Positions 3,637 through 25,074 of a stretch of DNA of 32,363 nucleotides are shown here, piece by piece (positions within the stretch are counted from its first letter, which is position 1; each line of letters begins with the position of its first letter). This DNA comes from Modestobacter caceresii (GTDB taxonomy: Bacteria; Actinomycetota; Actinomycetes; Mycobacteriales; Geodermatophilaceae): contig NZ_JPMX01000041.1 in NCBI RefSeq assembly GCF_000761485.1, positions 1-32,363 of the forward strand. The letters are read 5' to 3'. Position numbers and translations under genes: made by a program. The notes under the pieces were generated by a model. The model had not been told where the DNA came from, did no database searches, and was given only the letters and a program-made list of their open reading frames with translations.

Positions 3637-4169
3637 CGCCGGGCGAGCACCGCGTCGGTGGTGGTGAGGGTGATCAGCGGCGCGTAGAGCGCCATCGCGG
3701 CCAGCGCCCGGTCGTGGTCGGCGTCGCTGGCTCCCGCGCAGGCGTCGGTGACCACCTGCACCGGCACCCCGGCGTCCGCGGCGGGCAGGGCGGTGGAGAG
3801 CACGCAGCAGTCGGTGGAGACGCCGGCCAGCACCAGCGGCCCGGCCCCGACCACGGCGGCGAGCTCGGGGCCCCACTTGCCGAACGTGGTCGCGTCGAGC
3901 ACCGGCGCGTCGCCCGGGTCGTCGACCAGCGCGTACAGCGGCGCGTCCGGCGGTTGCCGCGCGAAGGGGTACTGCGCGTAGTAGGGCACCCAGGCCCCGG
4001 CCGGCTCGGCCGGGGCGACGAAGCGGGTGTGCACCACGCGCCCGGCGAAGGCCGTGGTCAGCCGGCGGATCCCCGGGTGCACCTCGGCGAACCGGGGCGC
4101 GCCCCACGGGGAGTCCCGGTCGGCGAAGACGTGCTGGGCGTCGACCACCACGAGCACGCCGTCGGTCAC
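3633..4169 (-). CDS. Isochorismatase-fold cysteine hydrolase
   Basis: A 178-residue cytosolic hydrolase of the isochorismatase/nicotinamidase superfamily. The Asp-Lys-Cys triad is complete: D10 in VVVDAQHVF, K98 in TTFGKWG, and C122 in GVSTDCCVLST, which is the family position TxxCV. Members cleave C-N amide bonds (nicotinamide, N-carbamoylsarcosine, ureidoacrylate, biuret) or isochorismate; an intact Cys favours an amidase. It starts with GTG at 4169, which overlaps the permease stop (GTGA), and its own TGA overlaps the mftF ATG. Permease, hydrolase and mftF should therefore be translated from one mRNA. Pairing with an NCS1 nucleobase/hydantoin-type permease suggests uptake and hydrolysis of a small cyclic amide or urea-like compound. 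The substrate is not determinable from sequence. Confidence 0.8.
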   Translation of the reverse strand: MTDGVLVVVDAQHVFADRDSPWGAPRFAEVHPGIRRLTTAFAGRVVHTRFVAPAEPAGAWVPYYAQYPFARQPPDAPLYALVDDPGDAPVLDATTFGKWGPELAAVVGAGPLVLAGVSTDCCVLSTALPAADAGVPVQVVTDACAGASDADHDRALAAMALYAPLITLTTTDAVLARR

Positions 4170-20542: not shown

Positions 20543-21670
20543 TTGAAGACCAAGGGCGCCATCCTGTGGGGAATCGGCCAGGAGTGGTCGATCGAGGAGA
20601 TCGAGATCGGGGACCCCCGGGCCAACGAGGTCACCGTGCAGCTGGCGGCCTCGGGGCTGTGCCACTCCGACGAACACCTGGTCACCGGCGGCACCCCGGT
20701 CGGCTCCTACCCGGTGCTCGGCGGGCACGAGGGCGCCGGCGTCGTCACCGAGGTGGGCCCCGGTGTCACCGGGCTGGCCGTCGGCGACCACGTCGTCACC
20801 GCGTTCATCCCGGCCTGCGGGCAGTGCCCGCCCTGTTCCAACGGCCACCAGAACCTCTGCGACCTCGGCGCCAGCCTGCTGGCCGGGACGTCGATCTCCG
20901 ACGGCTCCTACCGGGTGCAGACCGGCGGCAAGGACGTCGTCCCGATGTGCCTGCTGGGCACGTTCGCCCCCTACATCACCGTGCACGAGGCGTCGGTGAT
21001 CAAGATCGACCCGAACATCCCGCTGGAGGTCGCCGCGCTGGTCGGCTGCGGCGTGACCACGGGCTGGGGCTCGGCGACCAAGGTGGCCGACGTCCGCCCG
21101 GGCGAGACGGTCGTGATCATGGGCGCCGGCGGCGTGGGCATGAACGCCGTCCAGGGCGCCGCGGCGGCCGGGGCGCTGCGCGTGGTGGTGATCGAACCGG
21201 TCGTCGCGAAGCACCAGTGGGCCAAGGACTTCGGCGCCACCCACGTGTTCTCCAGCGTCGAGGAGGCCACGCCGGTGGTCAACGAGATGACCTGGGGCCG
21301 GATGGCGGAGAAGGCGATCATCACCGTCGGCGACATCCAGGGGGAGGACATCCAGGCCGCGGTCTCGATGATCGGCAAGGGCGGCCGGGTCGTCGTCACC
21401 GGCATGGGCAACGCGGCCAACATGGACGTGAAGCTGAACCTGTTCGAGTTCACGCTGCTGCAGAAGGACCTGCAGGGCGCGATCTTCGGTGGCGCGAACC
21501 CGCGCGCGGAGATCCCGGCCCTGCTCGCCCTCTACCAGGCAGGTCAGCTCAAGCTCGACGGGCTGGTGACGCAGAAGTACTCCCTGGCCGAGATCAACCA
21601 GGGCTACCAGGACATGCGCGACGGCAAGAACATCCGCGGGATGGTCGTCTACACCGACGCCGACCGCTGA
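20543..21670 (+). CDS. NDMA-dependent (mycofactocin-associated) zinc alcohol dehydrogenase
   Basis: A 375-residue medium-chain zinc dehydrogenase of the NDMA-dependent type, which oxidises alcohols with tightly bound NAD and hands electrons to mycofactocin. MKTKGAILWGIGQEWSIEEIEIGDPRANEV is the hallmark N-terminus. Catalytic zinc ligands are C40 and H62 with E63; structural zinc is held by C92, C95, C98 and C106 (CGQCPPCSNGHQNLC). The Rossmann motif is GAGGVGMNAVQGAAAAGA. It starts at TTG, with a strong Shine-Dalgarno. It is divergent from lldP and ends in a strong hairpin. Mycobacterial homologues include methanol:NDMA oxidoreductase (Rv3086-like). This is the only mycofactocin-dependent oxidoreductase in the window and is 9 kb from mftR. 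Alcohol specificity is unknown. Confidence 0.92.
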   Translation: MKTKGAILWGIGQEWSIEEIEIGDPRANEVTVQLAASGLCHSDEHLVTGGTPVGSYPVLGGHEGAGVVTEVGPGVTGLAVGDHVVTAFIPACGQCPPCSNGHQNLCDLGASLLAGTSISDGSYRVQTGGKDVVPMCLLGTFAPYITVHEASVIKIDPNIPLEVAALVGCGVTTGWGSATKVADVRPGETVVIMGAGGVGMNAVQGAAAAGALRVVVIEPVVAKHQWAKDFGATHVFSSVEEATPVVNEMTWGRMAEKAIITVGDIQGEDIQAAVSMIGKGGRVVVTGMGNAANMDVKLNLFEFTLLQKDLQGAIFGGANPRAEIPALLALYQAGQLKLDGLVTQKYSLAEINQGYQDMRDGKNIRGMVVYTDADR

Positions 21671-22260
21671 CCGGACCCGCGCCCCGTCGGCGGACGGGGC
21701 GCGGGCCGCACGGCGGCACCCGCCTGCGCCGGGTCCAGCGGGACGGCGGTGCGCAGCACGGCCGGGCCCAGCCGAAGGACGCCGTCCGACCGTGGTGCGC
21801 AGCGGACCCCCGCCCGCCCGCGGAGCCCGCGGTGTGCGCCGGGGGTGAGCGCGAGGTCCAGCCAGGCGCACGGGTGGGCCGGCCGCCCACCGGCCAGGAC
21901 GACGACCCCCTCCCCGGAGTCCAGGCTGAACGGCTCCCCGCGCAGCGCCTCGACCTCCGCACCCCGCAGGACGACGTTGCGCCGGGCGGCGAGCGGGTCC
22001 AACGGCCCGCTGCCCAGCTCGTCGGCCAGGTGGTCCAGCCCCTCGGCGGCGAGCACCGTCACCGAGGCGTCCCGGTGGGCGGGCCGGCCGAAGTAGCGGT
22101 CGCCGACGATGCCCAGCCCGGCCCGCACCTCGACCCGGTCGGTGCGCTCGACCGGTCCGGCCAGGGCAGGGTCGGGCCGGCCGTCCCAGCGGTGCGCCGG
22201 CGAGGCGAGCAGCCCGACGACCTCGACGTCGTAGCGGTACGGCAGGTCCTCGTCCGTCAC
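21649..22260 (-). CDS. MOSC-domain protein
   Basis: A 203-residue protein with a MOSC (molybdenum cofactor sulfurase C-terminal) beta-barrel. RAGLGIVGDRYFGRPAHRDASVTVLAAEGLDHLADELG, DPLAARRNVVLRGAEVEALRGEPFSLDSGEGVVVLAGGRPAHPCAWLDLAL and a later GLRGRAGVRC are the core blocks; the Cys in PCAWLD is at the conserved MOSC Cys position. MOSC proteins bind molybdenum cofactor or carry sulfane sulfur. The start is GTG at 22260. The last 22 bases overlap the end of the convergent dehydrogenase gene, and the C-terminal tail (PAPRPPTGRGSG) is translated through that gene's terminator stem. A Mo-hydroxylase accessory set lies 3-5 kb away. Confidence 0.82.
   Translation of the reverse strand: MTDEDLPYRYDVEVVGLLASPAHRWDGRPDPALAGPVERTDRVEVRAGLGIVGDRYFGRPAHRDASVTVLAAEGLDHLADELGSGPLDPLAARRNVVLRGAEVEALRGEPFSLDSGEGVVVLAGGRPAHPCAWLDLALTPGAHRGLRGRAGVRCAPRSDGVLRLGPAVLRTAVPLDPAQAGAAVRPAPRPPTGRGSGQRSASV
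21676..21705 (+). terminator. Terminator of the alcohol dehydrogenase gene, inside the MOSC gene
   Basis: CCCGCGCCCCGTC (21676-21688), loop GGCG, GACGGGGCGCGGG (21693-21705): a perfect 13-bp stem starting 6 bases after the dehydrogenase stop. It falls in the 3' coding end of the convergent MOSC gene. Confidence 0.75.
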
Positions 22261-22289
22261 CCGCCGATCGTCCCCCCTCGACTCCCTCG

Positions 22290-22315
22290 ACCACCAAAAT
22301 GGCCATTTTGGTGGT
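22290..22315. repeat. Palindrome A, copy 1 (of paired element)
   Basis: A perfect 26-base palindrome centred on TGG|CCA; its inner part reads CCAAAATGGCCATTTTGG. It lies in the divergent gap between the MOSC and M20 genes, 6 bases from palindrome B. Copy 2 is at 23816-23839. Confidence 0.9.
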
Positions 22316-22321
22316 GGGCTC

Positions 22322-22349
22322 GGGGGCCAAAGTCGCGACTTTGGCCCCC
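22322..22349. repeat. Palindrome B, copy 1 (of paired element)
   Basis: A perfect 28-base palindrome centred on TCG|CGA; its inner part reads GCCAAAGTCGCGACTTTGGC, with G/C-run ends, followed by a run of nine G. Copy 2, with one mismatch, is at 23849-23872 in the same order relative to palindrome A. Confidence 0.9.
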
Positions 22350-22387
22350 CGGGGGGGGGTGGGCGGCCGGGGCCGAGGACTGCGAAC

Positions 22388-23808
22388 GTGGACGGCGTGG
22401 ACCGCCAGACCGCCCTCGCCCGCGCCCGCGCCGCCGAGCAGCTCGACTCCGGCGTCTTCCTGACCGACCTGGCCCGCCGGGTCGCGCTGCCGACGGAGAG
22501 CGCCGACCCCGCCCGCGAGCCGGTGCTGCGGGAGTACCTGACCGCCGAGATGGTGCCGCAGGTGGAGCGGCTGGGCTTCACCGCGCGGATCGTGGAGAAC
22601 CCCGTCTCACCGCGCCACCCCTTCCTGGTCGCGCGGCGGGTCGAGGACCCCGGGCTGCCCACCGTGCTCACCTACGGCCACGGCGACGTGCACCCGCCCA
22701 CCCGGAGCAGTGGCGGGACGGGCTCGACCCCTGGCGGGTCGTGGTCGAGGGCGACCGCTGGTACGGGCGCGGCGTTGCCGACAACAAGGGCCAGCACAGC
22801 GTCAACCTGGTCGCGCTGGAGCAGGTGCTCGCCGTGCGCGGTGGCCGGCTGGGCTACAACGTCACGCTGCTGCTGGACATGGGCGAGGAGTTCGGCTCCC
22901 CCGGCCTGGACGAGGTCTGCCACCAGCTGCGCGACGAGCTCGCCGCCGACCTGCTGATCGGCTCGGACGGCCCGCGGGTCGCCGCCGACCGGCCCACCGT
23001 CTTCCTGGGCACCCGGGGCGCGGTGAACCTGACGCTGTCGGTGCGTGCCCGCGCCGCGGCGCACCACTCCGGCAACTGGGGCGGCGTGCTGAGCAACCCG
23101 GCCACGGTGCTGGCCAACGCGCTGGCCAGCCTGGTCGACGGCCGCGGGCGGTTGCTGGTCGAGGGCCTGCGCCCGGACGGCGTCCCCGAGCCGGTGCGGC
23201 GGGCGCTGGTGGACGTGCCGCTGGACCAGGGGCCGGACGCACCCGCCATCGACCCGGAGTGGGGTGAGCCCGGGCTGACGCCCAGCGAGCGGCTGTTCGG
23301 CTGGAACACCCTCGAGGTGCTGGCGATGACCGCCGGCGACCCGGAGGCCCCGGTCGGCGCAATCCCGCCGTCGGCCCGGGCGCACTGCCAGCTGCGCTTC
23401 GTCGTCGGCACGGACGGCGGCTCGGTGGCCGACCAGGTGCGCGCCCACCTGGCCGCGGCCGGATTCGGTGCGGTCGAGGTCAGCCAGGACCTCGCGATGG
23501 CCGCCACCCGCCTCGACCCCGAGGACCCCTGGGTCGCCTGGACGCTCGCCTCCCTGGAGCGCACCACCGGCGTCCGGCCAGCGCTGCTGCCCAACCTGGG
23601 CGGGTCGCTGCCGAACGGGGCCTTCGCCGACGTGCTCGGGCTGCCGACCGTCTGGGTGCCGCACTCCTACCCCGGCTGCGCCCAGCACGCCCCGGACGAG
23701 CACCTGCCGATCGGGCTGGTCCGGGAGTCCCTGCAGGTCATGGCAGGCCTGTGGTGGGATCTCGCCGAGCTCGCCCCCGCCTGGCCCCCGCCGTCCCACC
23801 CGTCCTGA
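22388..23808 (+). pseudogene. M20-family peptidase with a one-base frameshift
   Basis: An M20 zinc dipeptidase-like gene read in two frames. From GTG 22388 (GAGGA upstream) the first frame runs through residue ~101 (TYGHGDVH, the metal-binding HxD). It then must shift by -1 near 22692 into HPEQWRDGLDPWRVVVEGDRWYGRGVADNKGQ, the conserved continuation. Restoring one base between 22692 and 22693 (GTGCA-G-CCC) reads DVQPAHPEQWRDG and gives an intact 473-residue protein with LLDMGEEFGSPG, SGNWGGVLSNPATVLANAL and a C-terminal GGSLPNGAFADVLGLPTVWVPHSY. Members hydrolyse dipeptides or N-acyl amino acids. Either this is a young pseudogene or the base is a sequencing error; the rest shows no decay. Paired palindromes flank it on both sides. 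Confidence 0.8.
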
Positions 23809-23815
23809 CCCACCA

Positions 23816-23839
23816 CCACCACAATGGCCATTGTGGTGG
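23816..23839. repeat. Palindrome A, copy 2
   Basis: A perfect 24-base palindrome with inner part CCACAATGGCCATTGTGG. Compared with copy 1 it differs at one base in each arm (A to C and its partner T to G), so self-complementarity is kept. It lies between the convergent M20 and XdhC genes. Confidence 0.9.
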
Positions 23840-23848
23840 CCCGGCTGA

Positions 23849-23872
23849 GGGCCAAAGTCGCGACTTCGGCCC
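23849..23872. repeat. Palindrome B, copy 2
   Basis: A 24-base palindrome, GGGCCAAAGTCG then CGACTTCGGCCC, with one mismatch (23854/23867) that would be a G-U pair in minus-strand RNA. It is 9 bases after palindrome A copy 2 and ends 3 bases before the XdhC stop codon. Confidence 0.85.
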
Positions 23873-23875
23873 CTG

Positions 23876-24997
23876 CTAGCGGTCGGCGGTGCGGTGGATG
23901 GGGCCGGCGACCTCGGCCAGGCGCTCGCCGGTGCCGCCCCAGCGGCCGGCGATGATCTCCGCGGCGATCGAGACGGCGGTCTCCTCCGGGGTGCGAGCGC
24001 CGAGGTCCAGCCCGACCGGTGAGGCGAGACGGACCAGTTCGTCCTCCGTCAGCCCGGCCTCGCGCAGCCGGGCCAGCCGCTCGTCGTGGGTGCGCCGCGA
24101 CCCCATCGCGCCGACGTAGGCGACAGGCAGTCGCAGCGCGACCTCCAGCAGCGGGACGTCGAACTTCGGGTCGTGGGTGAGCACGCAGAGCACCGTGCGC
24201 TCGTCGATCGCCCCGGCGTCCACCTGGGCCTGCAGGTACTTGTGCGGCCACTCCACGACGACCTCGTCGGCGTCGGGGAAGCGGCGGGCGGTGGCGAACA
24301 CCGGCCGGGCGTCGCAGACGGTCACCCGGTAACCGAGGAACGACCCCACCCGGGCGACGGCGGCGGCGAAGTCGATCGCGCCGAACACCACCATCCGGGC
24401 CGGCGGGGCGAAGGAGGAGACGAACAGGGTCAGCTCGTCGCCGCGCCGCTCGCCGTCGTGGCCGTAGGTGAGGGTCGCCGTCCGGCCGGCGGCGAGCATG
24501 CCGCGGGCGTCGTCGGCGACGGCGTCGTCCAGCCGCTGGGCGCCGAGCGTGCCCGAGGCGCGGTCCGGCCAGAGCACCAGCCGCTTGCCGAGCCGGTCGG
24601 CCGGGCCCTTCACGCAGGTGACGACGGCGACCGGCTCGTGCGCGCCCACCGACGCGGCCACGTCACCGAGCTCGGGGAAGGACTCGCGGGAGATCGCCTC
24701 CACGTAGACGTCGAGGATCCCGCCGCAGGTCAGGCCCACGGCGAAGGCGTCGTCGTCGCTCACCCCGTACCGCTCCAGGGTGGGCTCGCCGCTGGCGAGG
24801 ACGTCCTGCGCCTCCGCGTAGACCGCGCCCTCGACGCAGCCGCCGGAGACGCTGCCCACCGCCGTCCCGTCCGGGCCGACCAGCATCGACGCCCCCGCCG
24901 GGCGCGGCGCGGACCGCCAGGTGCCCACCACGGTGCCCACGCCGACGGTCTCCCCCGCCTGCCACCACCCGACCAGGTCGTCAAGAACGTCGCGCAT
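23876..24997 (-). CDS. XdhC/CoxI-family molybdenum cofactor insertion protein
   Basis: A 373-residue protein of the XdhC/CoxI family, which binds sulfurated molybdenum cofactor and delivers it to xanthine dehydrogenase or CO dehydrogenase-type hydroxylases. The N-terminal XdhC domain shows VGVGTVVGTWRSAPRPAGASMLVGPDGTAVGSVSGGCVEGAVYAEA and GLTCGGILDVYVE; the Cys in SGGC and TCGG are the family positions. The C-terminal Rossmann domain contains VVFGAIDFAAAVARVGSFLGYRVTVCDARPVFATA and ends VAYVGAMGSRRTHDERLARLREAG. ATG at 24997 follows AAGGAG. It is last in the run coxD-coxE-xdhC. Confidence 0.9.
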   Translation of the reverse strand: MRDVLDDLVGWWQAGETVGVGTVVGTWRSAPRPAGASMLVGPDGTAVGSVSGGCVEGAVYAEAQDVLASGEPTLERYGVSDDDAFAVGLTCGGILDVYVEAISRESFPELGDVAASVGAHEPVAVVTCVKGPADRLGKRLVLWPDRASGTLGAQRLDDAVADDARGMLAAGRTATLTYGHDGERRGDELTLFVSSFAPPARMVVFGAIDFAAAVARVGSFLGYRVTVCDARPVFATARRFPDADEVVVEWPHKYLQAQVDAGAIDERTVLCVLTHDPKFDVPLLEVALRLPVAYVGAMGSRRTHDERLARLREAGLTEDELVRLASPVGLDLGARTPEETAVSIAAEIIAGRWGGTGERLAEVAGPIHRTADR

Positions 24998-25074
24998 GAG
25001 AGAACTCCTTCCGGCCTCGTCCAGAGGCTCGTCCCGAGCCCGCGAGGGATGAGGAGGACGAGGTCCTTCCACCT

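Follow-up and report, generated by a model that had tools for sequence, protein, structure and literature searches.

The window analyzed here is a stretch of 32,363 nucleotides from Modestobacter caceresii in which two short palindromes, A and B, occur twice and in identical order around a single gene, at the places where the earlier note had reported them. The first pair consists of A at 22291..22314 (CCACCAAAATGGCCATTTTGGTGG, a perfect 24-bp core) and B at 22323..22348 (GGGGCCAAAGTCGCGACTTTGGCCCC, a perfect 26-bp core), and the second of A at 23816..23839 (CCACCACAATGGCCATTGTGGTGG, again perfect) and B at 23848..23873 (AGGGCCAAAGTCGCGACTTCGGCCCC, with two unpaired positions); none of the four is assigned to a strand. 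The double change described for A, an A-to-C in one arm matched by a T-to-G in the other, is present in copy 2. One of the unpaired positions of B copy 2, which were absent from that description, lies within the core and the other is the outermost. The centers of A and B are 33 bp apart in both pairs. When up to three mismatches are allowed, each core is found exactly twice in the window and never in 100 shuffled sequences, and a search of positions 22000-24200 against Rfam gave no match up to an E value of 1.

Gene calling and Pfam matches placed pair 1 in a divergent gap and pair 2 in a convergent one. To the left of pair 1 lies a MOSC-domain gene on the reverse strand (21649..22260, start at 22260; PF03473, 24.5 bits vs. 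a cut-off of 22.7), between the pairs an M20-family peptidase gene on the forward strand (22388..23808, start at about 22388; PF01546 on its 3' part), and to the right of pair 2 an XdhC/CoxI-family gene on the reverse strand (23876..25072; PF13478 and PF02625), for which the gene caller puts the start at 24997 and the open reading frame at 25072. The M20 gene is split over two reading frames by a break near 22,700, which may reflect a pseudogene or a sequencing error.

A count of both palindromes across the genome and in related genomes, as proposed earlier, gave many further copies in M. caceresii and in the genus, far above chance, in agreement with the idea of a dispersed intergenic palindrome family of REP/BIME type. 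With at most one mismatch, the M. caceresii genome contains 42 copies of A and 20 of B, the reversed-pattern controls giving none; AATGGCCATT has 37 matches and the B core, with up to three mismatches, 25, and neither has any when the pattern is reversed. A search for a degenerate pattern that covers A and B, at two mismatches or fewer, gave 129 matches against 5 in the control. Of the 112 genomes of the family, 10 contain A and 12 contain B; for the 23 genomes of the genus, the numbers are 9 and 10. The reversed controls had no hits, and 29 of the 30 stretches with an exact 24-bp A match in named genomes belong to Modestobacter, the remaining one to a "Frankiales" MAG. The abundances of the two are independent, as seen in G094 (0 A, 14 B), G098 (7 A, 0 B), and G089 (22 A, 3 B). 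A broader pattern for related centers, RARATGGCCATYTY, occurs in 43 of the 112 genomes and 6 of 12 genera, and a further core, D (GGCCATGTTGGCCRACATGGCC), in 10 of the 112, the controls being 0 for both; D is present 60 times in G105 but absent from M. caceresii. The cores are not strictly exclusive, since the D-rich G105 also carries one A and three B, and the M. caceresii genome holds A, B, and some C cores together. In the open-licence literature, we found no description of these repeats or of the link between palindromes and a DUF559 nuclease described below.

On balance, we think it likely that A and B are REP-like repeat families that stand outside the known REP superfamilies, occupy the position of gene-end hairpins, and multiply as repeats. 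REP-type palindromes are among the commonest bacterial repeats, and the described superfamilies rely on one type of transposase. The domain of that enzyme, Y1_Tnp (RAYT, PF01797), had no match at E <= 0.001 in any of the 23 genomes of the genus, the same search being positive in 5 of 14 control genomes; this excludes a RAYT-driven REP system for the genus, and the REP-associated tyrosine transposase that the earlier note had suggested looking for is thus absent. The sequences next to the palindromes gave a similar picture: among the 82 A flanks and 56 B flanks, the 12 nt closest to the palindrome never contained GTAG, and CTAC occurred once, beside A. CGTC was present there in 8 A and 5 B flanks and in the following 18 nt in 16 and 10, which is about the same rate. 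As both the tag and the transposase are absent, we place A and B outside the described superfamilies (GTAG/CGTC).

The position of the palindromes relative to genes is strongly skewed. The examined loci contained 138 distinct A/B sites, of which 43 were in convergent, 66 in codirectional, and 12 in divergent gaps; another 11 fell within called genes and 6 at the edge of a locus. The gene caller had been trained on codon usage and called 90% of the examined M. caceresii loci as coding. Of the 121 classified sites, 36% are in convergent gaps, which account for 13% of the intergenic bases in the M. caceresii sample, and 10% are in divergent gaps, which account for 26%. In codirectional gaps, the median distance from the upstream stop codon to the palindrome is 10-20 nt. 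According to PMC1590033, bacterial stem-loops in general favor convergent gaps and the first 50 bp downstream of a stop codon. The argument that simple termination cannot explain both copies in the window, one being in a divergent gap, is fair for that copy, but divergent sites are a minority (12 of 121).

In convergent gaps, the palindrome is usually the only strong hairpin. Among those of 20-150 bp that contain A or B, a hairpin at least as strong as -20 kcal/mol is present in 14 of 15, and in 1 of 15 after the palindrome has been masked; of the length-matched convergent gaps without A or B, 49 of 56 have one. Since masking leaves 1/15 against 49/56, the palindrome replaces the ordinary hairpin instead of adding to it, with the qualification that masking shortens the sequence left for folding and so favors a sole-hairpin result. 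The rule is weaker in codirectional gaps, where another hairpin of this strength persists in 10 of 30 after masking, compared with 182 of 302 without A or B, and is not evident in divergent gaps (2 of 5). None of the 82 A tails and none of the 56 B tails contain four or more T in 8 nt, and the palindromes are for that reason no canonical intrinsic terminators. Codirectional A/B sites have 22 G.U vs. 21 A.C mispairs and thus no RNA-level wobble bias, and ordinary gene-end hairpins a modest one (55 vs. 31; coding control 256 vs. 236), a difference that is not decisive. By eye, the ordinary gene-end hairpins (L184-L243) are long and GC-rich, apparently without T-tracts, and have no common core.

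Orthologous gaps show that cores are exchanged. We made 63 comparisons between M. caceresii sites and relatives, which are non-independent as several genomes were compared per gap: 18 were A-A, 5 AB-AB, 4 B-B, and 8 were switches between A and B in four distinct gaps, the others being without A or B in the sense that only these two were scored; the sole case of B to none (L080 vs. L151) is an artefact of the compared stretch cutting the core. The genes flanking the switched gaps are about 81-97% identical. In 20 same-type pairs of single sites, 35 of 488 core positions differ; the 6-nt arms differ at 62 of 202 positions and the remaining sequence at 150 of 975. This conservation of the core is partly ascertained because the sites were located by core patterns. 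One example is the gap between the M20 and XdhC genes. Behind the XdhC gene, 13 of the 23 genomes of the genus have a recognizable core, of at least six types, and none was recognized in the other ten: A and B together in M. caceresii, G101, G102, and G103, A in G089 and, degenerate, in G100, B in G094, C in G104, D in G085, G087, and G092, a further type in G086, and F in G106. In G085, G087, G092, and G094, the palindrome nearly fills the space from stop to stop. Another gap contains two A in M. caceresii, two B in G094, and two D in G085, the centers being 54 bp apart in each, and the divergent gap between the MOSC and M20 genes has B only in G101, both palindromes in G103, and neither in G100, G089, G106, and G087. 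Among the genomes compared, we saw no transposition event, target duplication, or excision. A copy of A in M. caceresii (L066, ~3994-4017) separates two genes whose counterparts in G093 and G099 overlap or come close to touching, and the same place in G090 holds an unrelated element with inverted ends of ~15 bp (AGGCATAGGTACCAA ... TTGGTACCTATGCCT); the loci compared with L066 are L261, L262, and L263.

These exchanges bear on one alternative, that A and B are ordinary intrinsic-type bidirectional terminators, immobile and alike through descent and duplication of neighboring DNA. Point mutation does not explain switches of a whole hairpin from A to B in conserved gaps, nor do terminators need an identical core of 18-24 bp at dozens of unrelated genes, where the ordinary hairpins share none; A and B moreover have neither the T-tract nor the wobble bias. 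We therefore regard ordinary terminators as unlikely, even if the placement behind stop codons, the role of sole hairpin in convergent gaps, and the constant presence of some hairpin at the XdhC gap all agree with them, as does the occupation of the same position in most other gaps by GC-rich hairpins without a conserved core.

The arrangement of neighboring copies and the symmetry of their arms speak to a second alternative. The idea that A and B always pair did not hold: the count for the genus is 162 copies of A and 152 of B but only 11 A-B pairs within 30 bp, in 4 of the 23 genomes, so that most copies are solitary, and strict pairing was rejected. The 36 close doublets in the examined loci have center distances of 24 bp (1 case), 30-35 bp (16), 38-45 bp (8), and 52-55 bp (11), and no distance between 56 and 400 bp was seen among these loci; some of the doublets are orthologous, 12 stretches had been chosen because listings showed close pairs, and the length of the gaps limits the range. 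All doublets spaced at 52-55 bp join two palindromes of one type (A, B, C, or D). The F core was sampled without selection over 400 kb of G106, where 8 of its 10 sites are in doublets with a spacing of 33-35 bp. Structured spacers within doublets were considered and rejected, the z-scores being mixed and showing no consistent structure. The seven A-then-B neighbors in M. caceresii (the window; L072, L074, L077, L081) all have A before B on the contig strand, which may be due to chance as the orientation of contigs is arbitrary, and one of these loci has an additional second A.

The arms of the A core change independently of each other. At the 42 A sites of M. caceresii, 36 core pairs are altered on one arm and 5 on both, where independent arms would give 4.9, and the pairing of the variable core positions (173 of 210) equals that of shuffled arms (171.5 +- 2.9). 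For the B core, the corresponding pairing is 107 of 140 vs. 100.1 +- 3.9 (p 0.05), with both arms altered in 13 cases against 10.5 expected, a borderline result. Just outside the cores, pairing at flank positions +1..+5 exceeds that of shuffled arms in both A (119 of 210 vs. 85.4 +- 6.1) and B (71 of 140 vs. 56.1 +- 5.0), and positions +6..+10 of the M. caceresii A and B sites show no excess. Only the outer flanks +1..+5 thus covary; the earlier claim that symmetry is actively kept is borderline for the B core and fails for the A core, in which the arms show the very independence that the earlier note had named as counting against its reading. Selection for core symmetry is accordingly not supported, since both-arm changes in A occur at the independent expectation, and, because these arms vary independently, the paired A-to-C/T-to-G change in the window is by itself no evidence of selection. 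Correction of quasi-palindromes by template switching could likewise produce such a double change.

Independent variation within the A core is awkward for an explanation in which A and B are DNA-level sites of a dimeric protein at gene ends, such as a nucleoid protein, a roadblock, or a gyrase-recruiting factor, with a specificity that differs among lineages and with doublets of ~33, 43-45, and 53 bp that reflect helical phasing. Sequence-specific symmetric cores, the absence of an RNA wobble bias, and the preferred doublet spacings would all be expected of such sites, and BIMEs provide a precedent through the relief of positive supercoils at 3' ends. Several unrelated cores nevertheless coexist in the M. 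caceresii genome, doublets of 38-40 bp are out of phase, and no protein candidate was found, so that we consider protein-binding sites distinctly improbable.

The genes enclosed by the palindromes differ among relatives. The M20 gene adjoins the XdhC gene in 12 of the 21 genomes of the genus examined; G102 lacks it and has a single B-A pair separating the XdhC and MOSC genes, and it is also absent at this place in G105 and G088, which have no A or B between the two genes. In G089, a pair of genes for a CcdA-like antitoxin and a PIN toxin lies between two B copies (L148, 1426-2470), inside imperfect direct repeats of ~110-130 bp that include the 3' end of the upstream gene, and looks like an inserted cassette. 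That same-type palindromes serve as short direct repeats through which recombination gains and loses small gene-end cassettes would suit both this unit and the bracketing of the M20 gene by direct-order A-B pairs in the window, with one pair left in G102, but is very improbable, as G102 is a single loss event whose crossover cannot be placed, its spacer fitting neither of the relatives' pairs well, as G105 and G088 lack the M20 gene and also any A or B at this place, and as most palindromes are solitary.

If A and B are instead repeats that multiply, a candidate for their mobilization comes from another kind of enclosed gene. Same-type palindromes ~0.9-1.0 kb apart were met in six contexts, of which three enclose one family of predicted nucleases. 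Its copies are found in six genomes and next to three core types (A, D, and C), always the local one: the first context is shared by M. caceresii, G102, and G088, the second by G092 and G085, and the third is in G016, which belongs to another genus. The copies are 68-95% identical to that of M. caceresii. The other contexts enclose a pyrK-like gene (identified by eye; G088, L295), an FmdA-type gene (G105, L285), and the CcdA-like/PIN unit (G089, L148). All six nuclease copies were reached via palindromes and the frequency of bracketing is not free of bias; bracketing itself is not rare, as the examined M. caceresii loci contain four bracketed genes, three of them other than the nuclease. The weight of the link is in the recurrence of one family in three unrelated places.

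DUF559 scored over the cut-off in all five copies scanned, and both of the copies searched against AbiEi-like profiles matched in the N-terminal part; 962 homologs were found among 8000 scored candidates. The C-terminal domain has a profile match to the "mobile intron protein" I-Bth0305I (E 5.3e-5). A structure model built from 81 sequences reached a mean pLDDT of 91.4, compared with 50.5 for one from five sequences, and its C-terminal part fits 3r3p with a TM score of 0.75 over the 97-residue target, the best match for the whole chain being 1zel at ~0.4. The motif CTGTGGACGRCG is present just inside the upstream palindrome in 6 of 6 nuclease copies, and also beside the left-hand B copy that flanks the CcdA/PIN genes in G089; the 2.79 Mb examined contain 15 distinct occurrences, 8 of them away from palindromes. 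Those beside palindromes are in L053, L124, L305, L292, L297, L296, and L148. The complement of CTGTGGACGRCG resembles TTGTCCACA, the high-GC DnaA box. A profile search of the reading frames in the examined DNA found two further distant relatives of the nuclease (L313, L207), neither with a palindrome, and a search for the close G105 homolog over 380 kb of one 506-kb contig did not locate it and met only a 33%-identical relative. A search of plasmids with the nuclease returned seven records, all below 60% identity.

The AbiEi-like/DUF559 (Vsr-fold) nuclease might thus mobilize the palindromes. In a tentative extension of the repeat reading, which we put forward as possible, the lineage-specific gene-end palindromes (A, B, C, D, and others) would be dispersed by this predicted homing-type enzyme, which is unrelated to RAYT and itself bracketed by palindromes with CTGTGGACGRCG; the palindromes would in return be useful as gene-end hairpins, and a gap could for that reason exchange one core for another.

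For the REP-like families themselves, the patterns suggest the following course. A self-complementary core of ~24-26 bp would take the place of a gene-end hairpin close behind stop codons, where it would probably act as a two-way 3'-end hairpin through termination or 3'-end protection. Cores would multiply as repeats, so that different lineages come to carry different ones (A, B, C, D, F, and others), and different cores could take over one orthologous gap, their copies being single or in doublets of preferred spacing; the gene for the candidate mover, the AbiEi-like/DUF559 nuclease with its predicted Vsr fold, lies between two palindromes of the local type in six genomes. An actinobacterial family with the habits of REPs, minus their transposase and tag, raises the question of what else can spread a repeat of 25 bp, and the exchange of unrelated cores together with the recurrence of one nuclease family between palindromes makes that question testable. 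The families would also bear on the formation of transcript ends in actinobacteria of high GC content, as the gene-end hairpins seen here have no T-tracts.

Compared with known systems, A and B share with intrinsic terminators, including bidirectional ones, the place behind the stop codon, the strength of the hairpin, and the role of sole hairpin in convergent gaps, but differ in the absent T-tract, the repeated conserved core, and the exchange among unrelated cores. Like REPs, BIMEs, and REPINs, they are short extragenic palindromes with tens of copies that prefer the 3' ends of genes and are absent or replaced in close relatives. As described in PMC3733652 and PMC3116915, REP-type elements, much as A and B here, occur singly or as dimers whose spacers vary in sequence and are similar in length, and a genome may have several families and hybrid dimers. 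A and B are unlike them in having no GTAG/CGTC tag, no Y1_Tnp gene in the genus, and spacings of ~33 or 52-55 bp, and, as their cores are fully symmetric, their doublets have no orientation. The doublet, the main unit of REPINs, accounts for 8 of the 10 sites of the F core in the 400-kb sample of G106, whereas A and B are mostly solitary. With EDxHD/Vsr-fold homing endonucleases such as I-Bth0305I (PDB 3r3p), the predicted nuclease shares the C-terminal domain, by profile and by predicted structure, and departs from them in its AbiEi-like N-terminal part, its palindrome flanks, and the lack of an intron or intein. A parallel for its setting is the REPtron, a RAYT gene flanked by REPs: the enclosed gene here is a DUF559 nuclease and no HUH tyrosine transposase, and was located via the palindromes, which biases its frequency, but in both systems one gene family is found repeatedly between two palindromes of the local type.
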